A DNA stretch of 11,069 nucleotides, taken from Phycisphaeraceae bacterium. Lineage in GTDB: Bacteria > Planctomycetota > Phycisphaerae > Phycisphaerales > Phycisphaeraceae. The stretch spans positions 1 to 11,069 of the forward strand of contig SKPT01000078.1 in the NCBI GenBank assembly GCA_007119405.1, written 5' to 3'. Of the stretch, positions 1-10,815 are shown in pieces; the stretch's first letter is position 1, and each line of letters starts with the position of its first letter. Below the pieces are notes generated by a model. That model had not been told where the DNA came from, made no database searches, and was given only the letters and a program-made list of their open reading frames with translations. The translations under genes were made by a program, and so were the position numbers.

Positions 1-384
1 CTGCTCGAAACGCCCGAAATCAGCCGCGCGTGGCGCGAGCAGCACGACTCCGCTCCCGGCGCCGCCGACGGTGACCGACTCTACGAGCAGTTTCACGAGA
101 TCCAGGTCGAGGCCGCCGTCGATCGCGCGGAGTTGATCCCGGGCGTACTTGAGACCATCGACTGGCTGCGCGGCCGCGGCGCGATGATCGCCACCAACGC
201 CGGATACTTTCGCCAGGTGCTCGACGCGATCCTTCCCCCCGCCGCAGAACAGGGTCTCGACGCCGACTCGAATGTCTGCGCGACCGACGTCCCGGAGGCT
301 CGCCCCGCGCCATGGATGCTGGTGGTCAACATGCTTGAAACCGGCGTCTACCCCTCCGAGGCGGTCGTGAAAGTCGGCGACACC
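1..384 (+). other. PhnX-like (phosphonoacetaldehyde hydrolase family) HAD domain segment
   Basis: Reading frame 1 gives residues that follow the phosphonatase family closely. They include the end of the cap domain (LYEQFHEIQVEAAVDRAE), then IPGVLETIDWLRGRG, the DVPEARPAPWM segment equivalent to the PhnX DVPxGRPxPWM, GVYP, and the acidic motif VKVGDT with the Mg-binding aspartate. PhnX cleaves phosphonoacetaldehyde to acetaldehyde and phosphate. The family phrase GSTTGYT is here IATNAGYF, so this may be a PhnX-like HAD of different specificity. The nucleophile aspartate and Schiff-base lysine would lie upstream of the window. The usual continuation after GDT (a D-I-x-E-G-x-N-A-G type sequence and the C-terminal strand) is absent, so this domain is truncated at its 3' side. 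Confidence 0.75.
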
Positions 385-2061
385 GTGATTTTCAAGGGCG
401 GCGTGCGATACCGCGGGCAGATCGAGCTGCGCGACCGGGCGGGCGAGCCGGGTCGGCCCATCGTCCTCGATGGAAACACGCGCGGGACGTTGGGCCAGGG
501 CGCGGCGATTTTCGCCGGCAGCGACGCGACGGGCGACTGGCGCCGCGTCGAGGCGGCGGACGAGGTCGCCGGCAACGAGCACTGGGCCCGGCTCTGGGTC
601 ACGCAGATCGACGGTGAGGTCGGCCCGCTCGCCGCCAACCTGCACCAGGACGAGCGCCGGCTCTCGCTGGCCATGTCACCCGAGCCACGCGACCCCTTCT
701 ACCAGGACCTGCGCAGCGACTACCGCGAGATTCCCGAGGATCGGCGCCACGCCACGCACGTACGCGATCCCGGGTTCTTCACACACGACGCGCCCGATGC
801 CTGGGACCAGGCCATCGTCGGCGTGTACGACCTGCACGGCAACTCCACCTACTTCTCCAACGTTGCCGGCTACGACCCCGACACCGGGACGCTGCACTGG
901 CAGGGTGAGCGACGCAACCCCGCCGGCTTTGCCATGCTCAACCACCCCCGCCTGATCACCGGCCCCGGCCAGTACGCGGTGCGGCGGGATGGGCCACGCA
1001 CGCGGATCTACGTCTGGCCCCGGGACGCCGGGAACCTTGACGGCATCATGGTCTCGCGGCGCAACCGGGCCGTCACCCTGCTCGACAGTGACCACGTGAC
1101 CATTCAGGGCTTTCGCATGCTCGGCCAGCGCGGCGCGGCGGTGTACGCCCGCAACGCGGCGTTCATCACGGTTCGCGACAACGAGCTGACGCTGGCGACC
1201 TCCGGCAGCGTCGGGCGGGCCGGCGGCGGCTCGTCGATCGACATGAGCGACGTGCGCGACGTGCTGATCGAGGGCAACCACATCCATGACAACACCCGCA
1301 TCGGCGGCATCACGATCAATCCGGGCGAGCGCCTCGTCGTGCGCAACAACCGCATCCGCCGCACCGGGTACGTGGGCATCTGGCTGATGAACGCCCGCCA
1401 CGGGCAGATCATCGGCAACGAGATCCGCGACAACAACGCCACCCATGCCAACGCCATCTCCGTTTACGTCTCCTCCCGCGATGTGCTGATCGCCGACAAC
1501 CGCGTGTTCGGCTCGAGCCGACCCGTGACCGCCAGCGACACGACCGGCCTGGTCATCTACAACAACATCCTCCATGGCGACGACAACCTCGCCCTGGCCT
1601 TCTGGACCGCCGGCGACGTCCAGGCCCTCATCGCCCACAACGTGCTCACCGGCTCCGGCGACGAGGGTTGGATGCGCAGCCTGGCGATATTCAGCAACAA
1701 CCAGGGCGAGAACTCCAGCTTCCTGATCAAAAACAACATCGTCGACGGCGTGTATGGCCAGATGCCCGGGCAGCTCGCGGGCAACCTGTTCCTGCGCGAG
1801 CTGACCTTCGCCGACTTCGACGAGCAGGCGAATCGCCTGGCCGACGATGCTCAGGCGGTCTTCGTTGACGCCGCGGCGCACGACTATGGGCTCAGGGAAG
1901 GGAGCCCGGCGATCGGGATCGGGCGCGACCTGGACGCCGTGCTACCGCGAGCGACGTTTCCCGGCTATGACTTCGACCGCGACCTGGACGGCGAGCCGCG
2001 ACCCGCGGGCCCCGGGGTGGACGCGGGGGCGTATCAGCGGGCGGAATCGGCGGGTCCTTGA
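1..2061 (+). CDS. Chimeric ORF: PhnX-like HAD fragment fused in frame to a right-handed beta-helix protein (5' partial)
   Basis: The frame is open from the first base, so the true start lies outside the window; a TTG at 133 is only an internal codon. Codons 1-128 (to ~384) match the second half of a phosphonoacetaldehyde hydrolase-like HAD protein. From ~385 to the stop the protein is a right-handed parallel beta-helix of the kind found in secreted polysaccharide lyases and hydrolases. It begins with the phrase GDTVIFKGGV and, between about 1096 and 1750, carries at least nine rungs with the N-x-I/V pattern, such as VLIEGNHIHDN, LVVRNNRIRRTG, GQIIGNEIRDN and FLIKNNIVDG. The C-terminus has the common motif LREGSPAIGIG ... 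DLDGEPRP ... GVDAGAY. No signal peptide can be present at the junction, although beta-helix proteins of this type are normally exported. The polysaccharide substrate cannot be told. No frameshift is seen. The fusion may be real or an assembly artefact. Confidence 0.75.
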   Translation: MLETPEISRAWREQHDSAPGAADGDRLYEQFHEIQVEAAVDRAELIPGVLETIDWLRGRGAMIATNAGYFRQVLDAILPPAAEQGLDADSNVCATDVPEARPAPWMLVVNMLETGVYPSEAVVKVGDTVIFKGGVRYRGQIELRDRAGEPGRPIVLDGNTRGTLGQGAAIFAGSDATGDWRRVEAADEVAGNEHWARLWVTQIDGEVGPLAANLHQDERRLSLAMSPEPRDPFYQDLRSDYREIPEDRRHATHVRDPGFFTHDAPDAWDQAIVGVYDLHGNSTYFSNVAGYDPDTGTLHWQGERRNPAGFAMLNHPRLITGPGQYAVRRDGPRTRIYVWPRDAGNLDGIMVSRRNRAVTLLDSDHVTIQGFRMLGQRGAAVYARNAAFITVRDNELTLATSGSVGRAGGGSSIDMSDVRDVLIEGNHIHDNTRIGGITINPGERLVVRNNRIRRTGYVGIWLMNARHGQIIGNEIRDNNATHANAISVYVSSRDVLIADNRVFGSSRPVTASDTTGLVIYNNILHGDDNLALAFWTAGDVQALIAHNVLTGSGDEGWMRSLAIFSNNQGENSSFLIKNNIVDGVYGQMPGQLAGNLFLRELTFADFDEQANRLADDAQAVFVDAAAHDYGLREGSPAIGIGRDLDAVLPRATFPGYDFDRDLDGEPRPAGPGVDAGAYQRAESAGP

Positions 2062-3680: not shown

Positions 3681-4850
3681 TCACCAGGCCTCGCGATAGA
3701 GCTCGATGATCTGGTCCGCCTCGGGCACGCGCGGGTTGTTGGCGGGGCTGCCCGAGGCCAGGGCGTCGGCGGCCATCCTGGGCAGGTGCGACTCGAACCC
3801 GTCCCGATCCACCGAGCAGCAGTCGCGCAGGGCGGGCAGTTCCAGATCGCGGTTGAGCGCTTCCAGCCAGTCGACGAGCTTGCCGCAGGCGTCGTGCTCG
3901 CTGTCGCCGGCCCCGGCGGCGCCGACCGTCCGGGCGACGGCGGCGTAGCGGGCCGGGGCGCTGCCGATGCTGAAGCGCGTGACGGTTGGCAGGAGCACCG
4001 CGTTGGACAGCCCGTGCGGCAGGTGGAACATGGCCCCGATCGGCCGGCTCATGCCGTGGACGAGGCAGACGCTGGCGTTGCAAAAAGCCAGCCCGCCCTG
4101 GCACGCGGCCAGCGACATCGCGGCCCGGGCGGCCGTGTCGGCTCCGTCGTGGAAGGCGTCGCGCAGGTGGCGCGCCACCAGGCCGATGCACGCCAGCGCC
4201 AGCGGGTCGGTCATCGCGTTGGCCTTGCGCGAGACGTAGGCCTCGATGCCGTGCGTCAGCGTGTCCACGCCCACCGCCGCGGTCAGCGGCCGGGGCATCG
4301 AGTGCGTCAGCTCGTGGTCGACGATCGCGGCCCGCGGCATCAGCGGCGCCGCGAGCATCATCATCTTGACCTGACGCTGCGTGTCGGTGATCACGGCGAC
4401 CTTGGTCGCTTCGCTGCCCGTGCCCGCCGTGGTGGGGATCGCGACCACGGGCAGGCCCCGGCGCGCGATCTGGTGGTACCCGGCGTACGCGGGCAGGGGC
4501 TGGTCGTTGCGCGGGCGCACCGCCACGACCTTGGCGACGTCGATGGGCGAGCCGCCGCCCAGCGCGATCACGACGTCGGCCTCGTGCTCGCGCAGGGCGG
4601 CGAGACCCGCGTCGACGTTCGCGTCCGTGGGGTCCGCCTGGACGTCGCTGAACACCGCCGACACCAGGCCGGCCGCGTCGAGCATGGCGCGAAGCTCATC
4701 AACAATCCCGAGCTGGACGACGCCGGCGTCGGTGACGATCAGCGGGCGCCTGGCTTCGAGGCCGGCGACGAGCCCGGGCAGTTCCCGGCGGGCGCCGCCG
4801 CCGTGAAGGATGCTCGCCGGGGCGTCGAAGCGGGGGGATGCGGACGTCAT
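3681..4850 (-). CDS. Iron-containing (group III) alcohol dehydrogenase, 389 aa
   Basis: This is an NAD(P)-dependent oxidoreductase of the Fe-ADH family that interconverts alcohols and aldehydes in the cytoplasm. The NAD-binding GGGSPIDVAK is at residues 98-107 and the PTTAGTGSE motif at 139-147. The four metal ligands are in family order and spacing: D196 and H200 (GVDTLTHGIEAY), H265 (VHGMS) and H279 (LPHG). Length is typical (380-390 aa). The ATG at 4850 gives the standard N-terminus; upstream in-frame starts would overlap the preceding gene, and only a weak GAGAGA precedes this ATG. It lies 38 nt after the semialdehyde dehydrogenase and is the last gene of the - strand operon. A coupled role is likely, for example oxidising a hydroxyacid or alcohol to the semialdehyde used by its neighbour, or reducing surplus aldehyde. 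The substrate cannot be read from the sequence. Confidence 0.92.
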   Translation of the reverse strand: MTSASPRFDAPASILHGGGARRELPGLVAGLEARRPLIVTDAGVVQLGIVDELRAMLDAAGLVSAVFSDVQADPTDANVDAGLAALREHEADVVIALGGGSPIDVAKVVAVRPRNDQPLPAYAGYHQIARRGLPVVAIPTTAGTGSEATKVAVITDTQRQVKMMMLAAPLMPRAAIVDHELTHSMPRPLTAAVGVDTLTHGIEAYVSRKANAMTDPLALACIGLVARHLRDAFHDGADTAARAAMSLAACQGGLAFCNASVCLVHGMSRPIGAMFHLPHGLSNAVLLPTVTRFSIGSAPARYAAVARTVGAAGAGDSEHDACGKLVDWLEALNRDLELPALRDCCSVDRDGFESHLPRMAADALASGSPANNPRVPEADQIIELYREAW

Positions 4851-4888
4851 GGCGGATCTCTCGTACGAACTGCGACACAAGCGCCGCG

Positions 4889-6424
4889 CTACCATCCGTG
4901 CTTGCGAACGTAGCTGTCATCCCACCGGCTGAGCGTGAGCCTCTGCCGGGTGTAGAACCTCACACCCTCCGTGCCCTGGACGTGCAGGTCGCCGAAGAAT
5001 GACTGGTTCCAGCCGCTGAACGCGAACATGGCCATGGGGGCGGGCACCGGGACGTTCACGCCCACCATGCCGCACTGGACCTCCCGGGCGAACTGGCGCG
5101 CCGCCCCGCCGCTGGCGGTGAAGATCACTGCGCCGTTGCCGTAGCCGATGGCGTTGATGCGGGCGATGGCGTCGTCGAGCGTGGCGGGCCGCTGCATGGC
5201 AAGGATGGGGCCGAACAGCTCGGTGTTGGCGATGTCCATTTCCGGCCGGACGTGATCCAGCAGCGTCGGCCCGACGAAGAAGCCTTCGCGGGGGATGTTC
5301 TCGCGACCGTCGCGCACGAGCGTGGCGCCTTGCCGCCGACCCTGCTCGATGGCGTCGAAGAGGCGGTCGCGGGCCTGGCCGTCGATGACCGGGCCCATTT
5401 CGGCATCGTCGTGGCGATCGGTGGGCAGGACCTTGAGGTTGTCGATCGCCCGGGCGATCCGCTCGTTGAGCGCCTCGGCCGCGCCGCCGACGCTCATGAC
5501 CATTGACCCGGCCATGCAGCGCTGCCCGGCGCAACCGTAGGCCGCGCCCATGACGGCCCGGCAGGTGGACTCCGGCTCGGCGTCGGGCATCACGAGCATC
5601 ACGTTCTTGGCGCCGCCGGCGGCCTGGACGCGCTTGCCGGCCGCACAGCCGCGGGTGTAGACGTGCCGCGCGACGCGCGTCGAGCCGACGAAGCTGATCG
5701 CGGCGATGCCCGGATGATCGCAGATGGCGTCGACGACGGCCCGGCCGCCGTGCACCACGTTCAGCACGCCCGCGGGCAGGCCGGCCTCGGCGACAAGCTC
5801 CGCCAGGCGATTGGCCGTCAGCGGCACCTTCTCGCTGGGCTTGAGCACGAAGCAGTTGCCGCACGCGATCGCCAGCGGAAACATCCACATCGGCACCATC
5901 GCCGGAAAGTTGAACGGCGTGATCCCCGCGCACACGCCCAACGGCTCGCGCGTGGTCTGGCCATCGATGTGCTCGGCGACCTGAGGCAGGGACTCGCCCT
6001 TGAGCAGATGGGCGATGCCGCAGGCGAAATCGACCACCTCGATGCCGCGCCGCACGTCGCCCCGCGCTTCGCTGAGCGTCTTGCCGTTCTCCAGCGTCAC
6101 GAGCCGGGCGAGCTCGTCGAAGTGCGCTTCAAGCAACTGCTTGAGCCGGAACATGATCTGCGCGCGCTCCGGCGCGGGCGTGTCCCGCCAGCCGCGGTGG
6201 GCGGCCGCGGCGGCTTGCACGGCCTTGTCGAGGTCCGCGGCGGTGGACAGCGGCGCCGCCGCGATCCGCTGGCCCGTCGAGGCGTTGTGGACCGGGGCGA
6301 AGTCGGTGGCCGCGGCGTCAACCCACCGGCCACCGACCCAGTTGGCCAGGCGCTGATCGGTGGTGGAGGTGTTGGCGGCGGCCGGCGTCCCGGTGGTGCC
6401 GGGGGTGTTGGTGGATGCGCTCAT
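4889..6424 (-). CDS. mmsA: CoA-acylating (methyl)malonate-semialdehyde dehydrogenase, 511 aa
   Basis: MmsA/IolA-type enzymes oxidise malonate or methylmalonate semialdehyde with NAD and CoA to acetyl- or propionyl-CoA plus CO2. Visible hallmarks are the TPFNFPAMVPMWMFPLA segment (169-185, with the ALDH Asn172), FVGSTRVA (246-252), and catalytic Cys303 in CAGQRCMAGS with the neighbouring Arg302 typical of this subfamily. The usual ALDH general-base glutamate is replaced by a GGAKN context (270-274), as in CoA-acylating members. The C-terminal SGWNQSFFGDLH and GVRFYTRQR segments are also family-typical. The ATG at 6424 is preceded by AGGAGA at 5 nt spacing. A Thr/Ala/Asn-rich stretch of ~25 residues precedes the conserved core. 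It is the third gene of the operon, 73 nt after the epimerase-like gene and 38 nt before the Fe-ADH. Subfamily is very secure; the in vivo substrate (inositol, valine or another source) is not. Confidence 0.93.
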   Translation of the reverse strand: MSASTNTPGTTGTPAAANTSTTDQRLANWVGGRWVDAAATDFAPVHNASTGQRIAAAPLSTAADLDKAVQAAAAAHRGWRDTPAPERAQIMFRLKQLLEAHFDELARLVTLENGKTLSEARGDVRRGIEVVDFACGIAHLLKGESLPQVAEHIDGQTTREPLGVCAGITPFNFPAMVPMWMFPLAIACGNCFVLKPSEKVPLTANRLAELVAEAGLPAGVLNVVHGGRAVVDAICDHPGIAAISFVGSTRVARHVYTRGCAAGKRVQAAGGAKNVMLVMPDAEPESTCRAVMGAAYGCAGQRCMAGSMVMSVGGAAEALNERIARAIDNLKVLPTDRHDDAEMGPVIDGQARDRLFDAIEQGRRQGATLVRDGRENIPREGFFVGPTLLDHVRPEMDIANTELFGPILAMQRPATLDDAIARINAIGYGNGAVIFTASGGAARQFAREVQCGMVGVNVPVPAPMAMFAFSGWNQSFFGDLHVQGTEGVRFYTRQRLTLSRWDDSYVRKHGW

Positions 6425-6449
6425 GAGCGTCTCCTGTTGTGTCGCATGG

Positions 6450-6473
6450 ACAAGCTCCGCGGACTCCGCTTGT
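6450..6473. promoter_or_regulatory. Palindromic sequence in the leader of the semialdehyde dehydrogenase gene
   Basis: On the - strand a 24-nt element has perfect 6-nt outer arms, ACAAGC and GCTTGT, around a 12-nt centre that includes the palindrome TCCGCGGA. It ends 25 nt before the ATG at 6424, in the only sizeable gap (73 nt) after the epimerase-like gene. It could be a small intra-operon RNA hairpin or an operator. No -35/-10 pair was recognised nearby, so the role is open. Confidence 0.35.
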
Positions 6474-6497
6474 AAGCGGCACGTGTCGTGACCAGGC

Positions 6498-7556
6498 TCA
6501 AAAATGCCCCGCACGCTGCTCGTAATGCGTGGGCTTGTCGTGCACGGGCATGCCGCGCTTCAGCCAGTCGGCGTTCCAGCGGATCATCGTCTCGACGTCG
6601 ACGACGGGCTCGCCGAACAGGGCGCGGGCCTGCGACGTGTCGTTGTGCCAGGCCAGCGGCTGCTCTTGCCCGGTGAACACCGGCTCCACGCCGAACAGCT
6701 CGCCGAAGCGCGTCGCCACATCACGGATGCGCACCGGCCGGGGCATGCCGATGTTCAGCGGCGAGGCGGGCTGCGTGCAGTGGCGCAGGCTGCGCAGGAT
6801 CTGCGCCGTGCTGTCACCCTGCCAGATGACGTTGGCCACAGGCGTGGAGATGTCGATCGGCTGGCGCTGGCGCACCCACTCGGCGACGTCGTGCAGCACG
6901 CCGTACCGCAGGTCGATGGCGTAGTTCAGGCGGATGAGCCGCCCGGGGCTGGCGTTGCGCTGGCTGTGGTATTGCAGGACCCGTTCGCGGCCGACGCAGG
7001 AGTTGGCGTACTCGCCCAGCGGCGTGACGGCGTCGCTCTCCCTGCTGCCCGGGCCGTCGACGCGGGCGAAAGGGTAGACGCAGAGCGTGGAGAAGCCGAC
7101 GGTGCGCGAGCGAGCGAAGCGCTGGCCCACGAACGTCGGCACCACCACGTTCATCGCCCAGGTCATCGGCTCGCTGCCGGCGGTGCCGAACTTGCGCCCG
7201 GCCATGTAGATGATGTTGGGCACCTCGGGCAGCGCGTCGACCTGCCGCTGATCGAGCAGGTCGCACGTGATCGTCTCGACGCCCTGTGCCTCGAGACGCT
7301 CCCTGACCGCCGGGTCGCTGAAGCGCGCGACGCCGATCACGCGGCGGTCCGGCGCGGCCCGCCTGGCCATCATCGCCAGCGTGGGCCCGACCTTGCCGCC
7401 GACGCCCAGGACCATGATGTCGCCCGCCACGGCCGCGAGATCCCGCACCACGCCACGCGTCGGCGTCGAGAGCAGATCCTCCAGCTCCGCCACGTCGCGG
7501 ATCGTCGCGGGCAACGGGCGGTCTTCCAGGCAGGTGATGGTGTCGGTTTCCGGCAT
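6498..7556 (-). CDS. NAD-dependent epimerase/dehydratase-like protein (extended SDR), 352 aa
   Basis: The protein has an N-terminal extension of ~45 residues and then a Rossmann fold beginning at VLGVGGKVGP (49-58), the NAD-binding glycine motif. A second-strand arginine region (VIGVARFS) and NIIYMAGRKFGT (114-124) follow, typical of extended short-chain dehydrogenases that act on nucleotide sugars or other polyols. The expected catalytic YxxxK is altered: Tyr183 is present in GEYANSCVGRERV, but the lysine position is Cys187. The C-terminal domain shows LNIGMPRPVRIRDVA and other epimerase-like elements. It lies directly downstream of the DHDPS-like gene (56-nt gap) and no good Shine-Dalgarno is seen before the ATG at 7556, which hints at translation from the operon transcript. 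It may be a catalytically altered oxidoreductase, or a sugar-binding protein serving the lyase next to it. Confidence 0.85.
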   Translation of the reverse strand: MPETDTITCLEDRPLPATIRDVAELEDLLSTPTRGVVRDLAAVAGDIMVLGVGGKVGPTLAMMARRAAPDRRVIGVARFSDPAVRERLEAQGVETITCDLLDQRQVDALPEVPNIIYMAGRKFGTAGSEPMTWAMNVVVPTFVGQRFARSRTVGFSTLCVYPFARVDGPGSRESDAVTPLGEYANSCVGRERVLQYHSQRNASPGRLIRLNYAIDLRYGVLHDVAEWVRQRQPIDISTPVANVIWQGDSTAQILRSLRHCTQPASPLNIGMPRPVRIRDVATRFGELFGVEPVFTGQEQPLAWHNDTSQARALFGEPVVDVETMIRWNADWLKRGMPVHDKPTHYEQRAGHF

Positions 7557-7612
7557 GGGGCGATCGTTGGTCGCAGGTTCGGTCGAGCGAAGCGAGGCCC
7601 AAACATGGGCGA

Positions 7613-8686
7613 CTACATCTTCAGCCAGCGGTCGAGGTTCTCCCGCACGAACGCATCATCGCTCAGGTGCGGATAGTCGCGGCAGACGCGGTCGATCTCG
7701 TCGGCCTGGCCCGGGCTCAGGTCCTCGTTGCGCTTGAGCGTCCAGATGCCTTCGAGCAGGCCCTGGCGGCGCAGAATCTCGTTGACGCCCACGATGCTGC
7801 CGGCGTACTCGTTCGCGGCGTCGAAGATCGCGCCGTTGGCGTCGGTCAGCTCGGCGCTGAGCGTGAGCATCTCGGTGGGCACGCAGTCGCGCCGGCTCAG
7901 CTCGTGGCAGCGCGCCAGCAGTTGCACCGCCGTCTTCGTCCAGCACGCCCACTGCCCGAGCAGCCCGCCGCGGATGCGCACCGTGCGATGCTCGCCGTTG
8001 ACCTTGAAGCGCAGCGGCGTGAGCAGATCGTAGACAATGCTGTCATCGTTGCCGGTGTACAGGGCGATGTCGTCTTCGCGGCCGGCCTCGGCGACGGCGC
8101 GGGCCACGTCCAGCGTCCCGTAGCGGTTGAACGGGGCGATCTTGATGCCGTGCAGGTTCTCGATCTCCACGAGCTGCCGCCAGAACGCGTGCTCCAGCCG
8201 GATGCCGCCCACACCCGTGAGCAGGTAGAAGCCGAACACCGGCATGACGTCGGCGATGCGTTGGACATGGTGGACCATCTCCTGGTCCAGCGCATCGCCG
8301 AACGCCGCGAGCGAGACGATGGCGAAGTCGTAGCCCAGCTCGCGCGCCGTCTCGGCCTGGGCCAGCGCATCGCCGGTGCGGCCGTTGAGCCCCGCGATCT
8401 TGACGATCGGCCGACCGAGCCGGGCCGACATCGCGTCCAGCTCCTCGGCGCAGGTGCGCAGCACCGGCTCGAAGAGATCGATGCCGGGCCGGCGAATCTC
8501 GAACTGCGTGAAGTGCATCCCCACCGCCACGCCGCCGGCGCCCGCCTCGGCGTAGTAGCGCATCAACACGCGCTGGCGCTTCTCGTCGAAGCGCCGCCGC
8601 GCGTCCAGCGCCAGCGGCGTGGCCGGTATGACCATGCCCTGGCGGACGCGGCTGAGCATGTCCTGACGATCCATCTGCGGCATCAT
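7613..8686 (-). CDS. Dihydrodipicolinate synthase/N-acetylneuraminate lyase superfamily protein, 357 aa
   Basis: This is a class I (Schiff-base) pyruvate-type aldolase with a TIM barrel. The Schiff-base lysine is K182 in HGIKIAPFNRYGTLDV, the partner tyrosine is Y154 in FGFYLLTGVGG, and GVAVGMHFTQFE (52-63) sits at the substrate-carboxylate loop position usually read as GTTGE. It is about 60 residues longer than the usual ~295, with the extra sequence at the C-terminus. Lysine-biosynthetic DapA is unlikely given length and context; cleavage or formation of a sugar-derived 2-keto acid is more plausible. Two tandem ATGs stand at 8686 and 8683. The GAGGAG (8689-8694) is 2 nt from the first and 5 nt from the second, so initiation may be at 8683. 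It is the first gene behind a good promoter and heads the operon. Confidence 0.88.
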   Translation of the reverse strand: MMPQMDRQDMLSRVRQGMVIPATPLALDARRRFDEKRQRVLMRYYAEAGAGGVAVGMHFTQFEIRRPGIDLFEPVLRTCAEELDAMSARLGRPIVKIAGLNGRTGDALAQAETARELGYDFAIVSLAAFGDALDQEMVHHVQRIADVMPVFGFYLLTGVGGIRLEHAFWRQLVEIENLHGIKIAPFNRYGTLDVARAVAEAGREDDIALYTGNDDSIVYDLLTPLRFKVNGEHRTVRIRGGLLGQWACWTKTAVQLLARCHELSRRDCVPTEMLTLSAELTDANGAIFDAANEYAGSIVGVNEILRRQGLLEGIWTLKRNEDLSPGQADEIDRVCRDYPHLSDDAFVRENLDRWLKM

Positions 8687-8781: not shown

Positions 8782-9942
8782 TCATTCGCGCTGCGCCACC
8801 CGGTATAGCCGCACGTCGTACGGCTGAAAGTCGTCCGCGAACGATCCATCCTCCACCGCCAGGGCACGATTCCCGCCAAGCACCTCGATCTCATCGGCCG
8901 ATGACGCGCCCTCGATCGTGAAGCGCGCCCGGCACGCGGCGTTGCGCATCGCCACGGCGAAGATGTAGAGCCAGCCGTCGTGGCTCCGGGTCGTCGCCGC
9001 CACGGGGGCGTTCGCGTCGCTGCTGAGCACGCGCGCGGCCGGGCCGGCCGGCGCGTTGAGCACGGGGGCGAGCTCGCGAATCTCACCGTTGACCCGCGTC
9101 ACCGCCTCGCGCATCTCGTCGTTGGCCAGCAGCGCGGCGTCGTTCTTGTGACCTTCGCGAAAGTCATGAACGAACCAGCACAGCCCGCGCGAGCCGTGGA
9201 TCAACGACATCCACGCCTCGGCACGCACCTGGTGCGGCGTGGCGATCCGCTCGGGATTGTGAATGTGCGTGCATTCGAGCACGTTCCACACCGGCTTGCG
9301 ATCCTCGACGAACGACCGCAGCCGCTGCACCCCCTTGGCGACGTACCAGAGGTACTCGTGCCCGTCGGGGGCGAAGATCGTTCGCCCGTCGGGCCCGGGC
9401 AGCTTGAGGTTCGCCACCGGGTAGACGTCGTAGCAGACGATGTCCGCGCCGCGGGCGTAGAGCGGGTATTGCTCGAGCGTCGCCCCGCGGCCCGGGAAGG
9501 CGTCGTTGGCCACGCCCTGGCCGAAGTTCACCACGATCGGCCGCGTCGGGTCCTTGGCGCGGATCGCCTCGGCGTCGCGCTGGATCTTCTCCGGCGGCAC
9601 GGGCTGGCCGGCGTGGGGGTCGTTCGGCCCGCGGCGGTTGTCCGGCTCATCGCCGTGCATCCACGCGATGATCGGCGAGTCGCCCCGCTCGATGTCCGCC
9701 AGCGCCACGTCGTTCTGCCGGCAGATCGCGTGCATCCCCGCGTCGCGCAGCCGATCGAGCTGCTCCGGCGTGGGCCCGCGGTGCAGGGCGAAGTAGGTGT
9801 TGACGCCGATGGCCTTGTACTGCTGCGCGAGCGCCGGATCCTGCGACCAGACGAGGATGGGCAGGAATCCCGGGTCGGTCGGCGGCCCGTTGGTCCATTG
9901 GGCGTAGGGGCTTTCGGCGCTGGAAGCGGTGGGGCTGGTCAT
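8782..9942 (-). CDS. TIM-barrel glycoside-hydrolase-like protein, 386 aa
   Basis: I do not recognise a named family. The sequence reads as a (beta/alpha)8 barrel of glycoside hydrolase clan A type: PILVWSQDP near the start, KAIGVNTYFAL (43-53), IIAWMHGDEPDN (91-102), IVVNFGQG (136-143), ADIVCYDVYPV (167-176), WNVLECTHIH (219-228) and GLCWFVHDF (253-261). E99 of GDEP and E223 of VLEC sit where clan A acid/base and nucleophile glutamates are expected; this is an inference from spacing. A small beta domain follows from ~300 to the end. The ATG at 9942 is preceded by GGAGG (9950-9954) with a 7-nt spacer. In-frame sequence upstream is open but would run through the divergent promoter region. No signal peptide is visible, so it is probably cytoplasmic. 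It lies 95 nt before the lyase operon on the same strand and diverges from the BlaI-type gene. Confidence 0.8.
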   Translation of the reverse strand: MTSPTASSAESPYAQWTNGPPTDPGFLPILVWSQDPALAQQYKAIGVNTYFALHRGPTPEQLDRLRDAGMHAICRQNDVALADIERGDSPIIAWMHGDEPDNRRGPNDPHAGQPVPPEKIQRDAEAIRAKDPTRPIVVNFGQGVANDAFPGRGATLEQYPLYARGADIVCYDVYPVANLKLPGPDGRTIFAPDGHEYLWYVAKGVQRLRSFVEDRKPVWNVLECTHIHNPERIATPHQVRAEAWMSLIHGSRGLCWFVHDFREGHKNDAALLANDEMREAVTRVNGEIRELAPVLNAPAGPAARVLSSDANAPVAATTRSHDGWLYIFAVAMRNAACRARFTIEGASSADEIEVLGGNRALAVEDGSFADDFQPYDVRLYRVAQRE

Positions 9943-10060
9943 GGCTTGGCCTCCGAAGCTCGGATCACGGACGACGTGCGACACTGCGATGATACGCCAC
10001 CGGTCGATCCCCGGGTTGGCGGCCCGTCGGCCCGGCCGCCGCGGCAGGGGGGCTCCCGGC

Positions 10061-10089
10061 TTGCGTCGGGGCGCCGGGGCGGCTAAAGA
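10061..10089 (+). promoter_or_regulatory. Weak promoter-like sequence before the BlaI-type repressor
   Basis: TTGCGT (10061-10066) and TAAAGA (10084-10089) have a 17-nt spacer. Each matches the sigma-70 consensus at only three of six positions, but the spacing is ideal and a palindrome follows directly. It lies in the 188-bp divergent region between the TIM-barrel gene and the repressor gene. The rest of that region shows no gene. Confidence 0.3.
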
Positions 10090-10105
10090 TGTCAATAACT
10101 TGGCA
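10090..10105. promoter_or_regulatory. Candidate BlaI-type operator
   Basis: TGTCAATAACTTGGCA is an inverted repeat of form TGYCAA-N4-TTGRCA with one mismatch between arms. It sits over the presumed transcription start, just after the -10-like box and 25 nt before the repressor ATG at 10131, a good position for autorepression. BlaI/MecI proteins bind short palindromes as dimers, often with TACA/TGTA arms, so this is not a textbook site. Confidence 0.4.
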
Positions 10106-10130
10106 CGCCCGCCGCAGGAGCCTTGCAAGC

Positions 10131-10514
10131 ATGACCGCGAGCCACGAGCTGAGCCGACGCGAGCGGCAGATCATGGAGGTGATCTACCGCCACGGCACCG
10201 CGACCGCGCGCCAGGTGGCCGAGGCGATGGAGAACCCGCCATCGCATACGGCCGTGCGGACGATGCTGCGGATCCTCGAGGACAAGGGGCATCTCAAGCA
10301 CAGCGTGCGGGGCCGGGCCTACGTCTACCAGCCGACCCAGCCACGCACCCGCGCCGGCCGGTCGGCGCTGCGGCGGGTCGTGCAGACGTTCTTCGGCGGC
10401 TCGCTCAAGGACGCCGTCGCGGCCCACCTCAGCTCGCCCGGCATCAAGCTCGACGAGGCGCAGCTCCGCGACCTGGCGGACCTGATCGAGCAGGCCCGGC
10501 GCCAGGGGCGATGA
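10131..10514 (+). CDS. BlaI/MecI/CopY-family transcriptional repressor, 127 aa
   Basis: This is a winged-helix DNA-binding protein of the BlaI/MecI family. The N-terminal domain shows LSRRERQIMEVIYRHGTATARQVAEAM-type helices, then HTAVRTMLRILEDKGHL (recognition helix and following turn) and the wing RGRAYVYQP. The C-terminal helices, from about residue 65 on, form the dimerisation region and include FFGGSLKDAVAAHL, a common family phrase. Length is typical (120-130 aa). The ATG at 10131 is preceded by AGGAG (10116-10120) at 10 nt; an in-frame ATG at 10089 would have no Shine-Dalgarno and would overlap the candidate operator. Usual partners are BlaR1-type M56 sensor peptidases, but none follows: a VWA remnant converges after 16 bp. 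Targets could be its own promoter or the divergent TIM-barrel gene. Confidence 0.93.
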   Translation: MTASHELSRRERQIMEVIYRHGTATARQVAEAMENPPSHTAVRTMLRILEDKGHLKHSVRGRAYVYQPTQPRTRAGRSALRRVVQTFFGGSLKDAVAAHLSSPGIKLDEAQLRDLADLIEQARRQGR

Positions 10515-10530: not shown

Positions 10531-10815
10531 TCATGGGCCGACGCGGGCCATCTCGTCGAGCAGGTGGCGGTTGGGCGCGTTGCTCATGCCCACGGCGAAC
10601 ACGCGCGTCTCGTGGGCGCGCTCGCGGATCGCGTCGATGATCGCCGCGTCGTTGCTCACCAGCCCGTCCGTGACGAACAGCACGATGCGCATGCGCTCCG
10701 CGTCGTCGCCGTCCCGGTCATGCTCGTCAGGGCGGCGGCGGTCCCGGAAGGGCCCGGCGTTGAGCGCACGCAGCACGGCGTTGCGCATCGCGAAGCGGGT
10801 GGGGACATCGGCCAT
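10531..10815 (-). pseudogene. VWA-domain remnant (VIT/VWA-type), 94 aa
   Basis: The product contains the second half of a von Willebrand factor A domain: ERMRIVLFVTDGLVSND (40-56, with MIDAS aspartate D50 in TDG), then TRVFAVGMSNAPNRHLLDEMARVG. This matches the conserved core of VIT/VWA-domain proteins. The first MIDAS motif DxSxS and the VIT domain are missing, and the frame stops right after ARVGP where family members continue, so it is truncated on both sides. The ATG at 10815 nonetheless has GAGGT (10822-10826) 6 nt upstream, and an in-frame stop at 10825-10827 fixes the start. A low-complexity Arg/Asp stretch (24-38) interrupts the region before the core strand. It converges on the BlaI-type gene. 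It is most simply a degraded remnant; a small expressed protein is possible. Confidence 0.6.

Follow-up and report, generated by a model that had tools for sequence, protein, structure and literature searches.

The first gene of the 11,069-nucleotide stretch of Phycisphaeraceae DNA analysed here (the window) raises the question of whether a phosphonatase, PhnX, and a beta-helix protein have become fused in a living cell or whether DNA of two organisms has been joined around them. A single open frame occupies positions 1-2061 of the plus strand, encodes 686 residues and is open at its 5' end. The preliminary description had read this frame as phosphonatase-like and then beta-helix, with a switch at a Gly-Asp-Thr motif within 361-400, and had left two interpretations side by side, a metagenome misjoin or a genuine scar of recombination yielding a cytosolic chimeric protein. 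The reading of the frame is borne out, with GDTV (376-387) as a slightly more exact position for the switch, and of the two interpretations the misjoin gains support while genuine recombination loses it. On sequence comparison, the window is very probably a chimeric contig and its apparent PhnX/beta-helix fusion a misjoin of DNA from two bacteria. This explanation is the most likely because a letter-perfect unfused counterpart exists for the right-hand part and a close unfused relative for the left. The features concerned are as follows.

1 to 375, plus strand: phnX fragment, an Armatimonadota-like and apparently foreign left end, equivalent to residues 67-191 of protein P0044 (from TIGR01422, structure 1swv, P0044, tree and GC3)
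376 to 387, plus strand: junction, GGCGACACCGTG, encoding Gly-Asp-Thr-Val, a four-residue word that each parent protein contains
388 to 2061, plus strand: right-handed parallel beta-helix protein without its N-terminal part (PF13229), equivalent with the junction residues to residues 80-640 of protein P0001
2132 to 3466, plus strand: glycoside hydrolase family 28-like protein (PF00295, E 1.4e-20), given for context only
7613 to 8686, minus strand: DHDPS-like protein, matching P0093 with 100% identity over 100% coverage (2 contigs, the longest 34,830 bp)

Unfused counterparts of the two halves

Residues 1-124 match positions 55-178 of the 251 in the TIGR01422 phosphonatase (phosphonoacetaldehyde hydrolase) profile with an E-value of 7.9e-35. 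The score of 120.3 bits falls short of the full-protein cut-off of 220, as expected since only a piece of the protein is present. Residues 60-188 of the solved PhnX structure 1swv align gaplessly to window residues 1-129 and end in KVGDTV. The nearest relative, P0044 (276 aa), shares 120 of these 129 residues (93%) and continues after GDTV as PDIEEGLNAG, where the window has IFKGG instead. While the window shares the GDT loop of its PhnX relatives, the D..EG.NAG-type stretch that follows in them is missing. Measured against the PhnX family, nothing after GDTV is retained, and residues 1-66 (P0044 numbering) fall left of the window. The residue second after GDT is proline in 40 of 49 PhnX matches, and the true phnX parent could differ from P0044 beyond GDTV. 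P0044 carries DWAGT near its N-terminus; we take the N-terminal nucleophile motif and Schiff-base lysine of PhnX to fall left of the window's first base, and its GDT region to be the metal-binding loop.

To bring full-length PhnX proteins within the length limits, the PhnX relatives were collected with a query of 250 residues in which word finding and scoring were restricted to residues 1-129; proteins of approximately 137-437 aa were admitted, and longer fusions would be visible only in the whole-frame search. The PhnX search returned 49 matches from 358 candidates, 34 of them (P0044-P0077) at 68-93% identity and the other 15 at 45% or less. A maximum-likelihood tree was built from the 49 matches and the window piece, which occupies only 47% of the retained columns, and in it P0044 is the sister of the window (support 99/91). 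The window falls within a five-row group that holds one Armatimonadota protein (99/90), and all 34 closer relatives form with it one clade of 35 rows (100/96). Four of these 34 relatives carry a taxon name, in every case Armatimonadota or Armatimonadia. Base composition also sets the left end apart. Its GC3 is 0.832 over 375 bp, a value reached or undercut in 2 of 2252 overlapping 375-bp windows from eight other genes; both of these lie in the gene at 8785-10128, where the start may have been called too far upstream, and among non-overlapping windows 1 of 22 also reaches 0.832. GC3 separated the left end more clearly than codon usage, which differs only mildly (mean log-likelihood -0.98, against -1.15 and -0.96 for the two lowest of the other 375-bp windows).

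The remainder of the frame is a beta-helix protein by PF13229, with E-values of 9.4e-18 for the whole frame and 9.1e-19 in a scan of 385-2058; the gathering cut-off is well exceeded (64.8 bits vs 25.9), and PF05048 is found in the same frame (E 3.5e-13). Window residues 126-686, from GDT to the C-terminus, are identical to residues 80-640 of P0001 at 561 of 561 positions. P0001 is a beta-helix protein (PF13229/PF05048) of 640 aa encoded on a 34,830-bp contig, and differs in having 79 N-terminal residues of its own instead of the PhnX piece. Its N-terminus is hydrophobic and, judged by eye, signal-like, and continues as ...YVDFDGGDDEADG...APGDP...LRPGDTV. The segment before GDT, with a YVDF-like start,.PGDP and L..GDT, is found in 8 of 9 aligned database rows including P0001, while P0004 starts later. 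A beta-helix N-terminal part of this kind, with a start that is signal-like by eye, is thus present in P0001 and seven other rows and missing in the window. The preliminary description had held that the HAD half lacks its C-terminus and the beta-helix half its signal peptide and first rungs, and the comparison now gives these losses a length: 81 residues from the C-terminus of PhnX (GDTV ends at residue 195 in P0044) and 79 from the N-terminus of the beta-helix protein (in P0001 GDTV begins at residue 80).

The match to P0001 appears to extend to its surroundings. The DHDPS-like gene lies approximately 7 kb to the right of the junction, and the longest contig of its identical match P0093 has the same size as that of P0001, which links the DNA right of the junction to P0001's contig; that the two lie on the same contig rests on this equal size of 34,830 bp. 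Since both the 561 P0001 residues and the DHDPS-like protein are identical throughout, evidently the same strain carries the beta-helix gene whole on the 34,830-bp contig, which may come from another sample, with a strain difference possible. Five of 43 beta-helix matches carry a taxon name, namely Phycisphaeraceae (P0002), Planctomycetes or Planctomycetota (P0018 and P0023) and Opitutales (P0024 and P0042). The nearest named relative is from a Phycisphaeraceae metagenome-assembled genome (P0002, 72%), making a planctomycete the probable source of the right-hand DNA. The phylum of this organism is not firm because few rows are named and the named DHDPS relatives among the 120 matches listed are Verrucomicrobia. 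Armatimonadota do not occur among the named beta-helix relatives, nor among the named DHDPS relatives in the matches listed.

The junction at Gly-Asp-Thr-Val

The codons at 376-387 are GGC GAC ACC GTG, and the switch point lies inside these four, with no finer placement. The break is assigned to this interval because P0044-type sequence matches through V129 and P0001 matches from G126. The claim that Gly-Asp-Thr is common to both families at the switch holds at the protein level, where the shared word is GDTV. On the upstream flank P0001 has a proline (CCN) where the window reads GTC, and on the downstream flank P0044 has a proline (CCN) where the window reads ATT. Therefore at most 12-13 bp are common to both genes, an upper bound derived by codon logic from the proteins rather than by comparing the parent DNA, and the true number may be smaller. 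Because the tract specifies GDTV in either gene, the frame is kept automatically.

No five-residue word is common to P0044 and P0001, and only five four-residue words are shared among 173,901 position pairs. Given this rarity a random ligation is unlikely, and the join appears to have been guided by the tract. Within the window GGCGACACCGTG has a single exact copy, and six occurrences with up to two mismatches compare with 4.2 expected by chance, so the tract itself is nothing special. The presence of a tract common to both genes at GDT does not discriminate recombination from artefact. The join lies 375 bp from the window end, which truncates phnX.

Fused relatives and competing explanations

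A search with the whole 686-residue frame yielded 43 matches from 7993 scored candidates, covering 8-87% of the query. PF13229 is listed in all 43 and a HAD domain in none. By BLASTP at an E-value of 0.01, all 43 match the beta-helix half and none matches the PhnX half (residues 1-125); conversely, none of the 49 PhnX matches also matches the beta-helix half. Testing the halves separately against the proteins of both searches, along the lines that the preliminary description had proposed, gave no other protein containing both. Each side instead matches a separate unfused product (P0044, 276 aa, 93%; P0001, 640 aa, 100%), as a chimeric contig would give, and the sides differ in taxonomic affinity, Armatimonadota against planctomycete or verrucomicrobial, with few rows named. 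Genome contigs scanned with the beta-helix half contained five distant loci at 26-47% identity, all from other species, and viral contigs scanned with P0044 and with P0001 contained no relative of either. A verrucomicrobial metagenome-assembled genome searched with TIGR01422 gave seven matches, none of them above the cut-off.

Real recombination in a cell is unlikely, although it survives better than the other alternatives to a misjoin. Armatimonadota phnX DNA would have entered a planctomycete-like strain very recently and joined by microhomology at GGCGACACCGTG, over at most 12-13 bp, to form an in-frame gene. The frame is indeed open across the junction, and a junction at a shared word is the outcome that microhomology-mediated joining would give. 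However, such an event needs transfer between distant lineages, and evidently the same strain is found unfused yet otherwise identical, both in the beta-helix residues (561/561) and in the DHDPS-like protein (100%). A second case is found neither among the 43 whole-frame matches nor among the 49 shorter proteins of the PhnX search. Both halves are also damaged, with PhnX lacking everything after GDTV and the beta-helix protein its signal-like sequence. Even with a genuine junction, neither half would be likely to retain activity, since PhnX would be cut after its metal-binding loop and the beta-helix would have no signal-like start. The proposed scar with a cytosolic chimeric product is not supported, given the absence of dual matches in either search and the intact gene on the 34,830-bp contig. 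The preliminary description had reasoned that relatives with the halves in separate intact genes would speak against a real fusion, and P0001 and P0044 are products of such genes.

Less probable still is a deletion within one genome in which phnX and the beta-helix gene lay side by side, either a real deletion or an assembly collapse. Both pieces lie on the plus strand, and one longest-contig size, 2254 bp, is common to a PhnX match (P0070) and a DHDPS match (P0112, among the 120 of 8000 listed). Jittered lists gave at least one such PhnX/DHDPS coincidence in 28% of trials. At this chance level, the shared size is weak evidence either way on a phnX gene beside the alcohol dehydrogenase, aldehyde dehydrogenase, epimerase-like and DHDPS genes. 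No longest contigs of equal size are found between the 49 PhnX and the 43 beta-helix matches, and the Armatimonadota affinity and lower GC3 of the phnX piece argue against a common genome. An established and conserved PhnX/beta-helix fusion family is hardly credible: two domains do share one open frame in the window, but the cross-matches are 0/43 and 0/49 at an E-value of 0.01 and the unfused P0001 is perfectly identical from GDT onwards.

Possible origin of the probable misjoin, and neighbouring genes

A misjoined contig end would be composed as follows. From approximately 376-387 rightwards the DNA would derive from one bacterium with an unbroken beta-helix gene, and the first 375 or so bases would be a piece of an Armatimonadota-type phnX from another organism. 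The pieces would have become attached at GGCGACACCGTG, over 12-13 bp or less, a tract that the genes can have in common since GDTV occurs in both proteins, and the join would have been made in the laboratory or the computer rather than in a cell. Candidate routes are template switching, a ligation chimera during library making, or the wrong extension of a contig end by the assembler. The k-mers usually used in assembly are longer than an overlap of 12-13 bp. As the tract is shorter than common k-mers, a chimeric library molecule would be likelier than a pure graph error, and we lean towards a contig end extended by such a molecule.

Contigs that combine sequence of several genomes are among the outcomes described for metagenome assembly (PMC7299287), and the window, probably made up of DNA from two organisms, resembles them. 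A short tract common to both sides of a join is likewise described for chimeras of multiple-displacement amplification, where complementarity of 2-21 nt was found at more than 70% of junctions; the likeness to the window is by analogy only, as 85% of these amplification chimeras were inversions and only 27.6% of directly joined segments more than 10 kb apart had such complementarity (PMC1855051).

The locus carries a general warning, in that a shared four-residue motif can disguise a cross-phylum contig chimera as a clean in-frame fusion, and an open frame raises no alarm. Unchecked, such a sequence could find its way into databases as a PhnX/beta-helix fusion and wrongly suggest a gene transfer.

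The remaining right-hand genes were also surveyed. Four genes lie in a row on the minus strand at 3681-8686 and encode an iron-containing alcohol dehydrogenase, an aldehyde dehydrogenase, an NAD-dependent reductase-like protein (weak) and the DHDPS-like protein. The aldehyde dehydrogenase is of the methylmalonate-semialdehyde type (TIGR01722, 608.7 bits vs 448.5), and for the DHDPS-like protein all 8000 scored candidates had an E-value of 0.001 or less. The row looks like a catabolic operon. The frame at 8782-10128 (minus strand) encodes 448 residues without a significant Pfam match, and its TTG start may be placed too far upstream, given low GC3. At 10531-10815, also on the minus strand, a 94-residue frame ends in ..LLDEMARVGP and a stop; it lies between a BlaI-like gene (10089-10514) and the end of a short frame at the right edge that has no Pfam match. 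Its VWA_3 (E 0.022) and VWA (E 0.03) matches are below cut-off, as is its best Pfam line, TetR_C_28 (E 7.1e-4). We take its motif to be that of VWA, and the frame resembles a piece of a VWA domain truncated on both sides. It could be what remains of a gene, a spurious frame or a second join.
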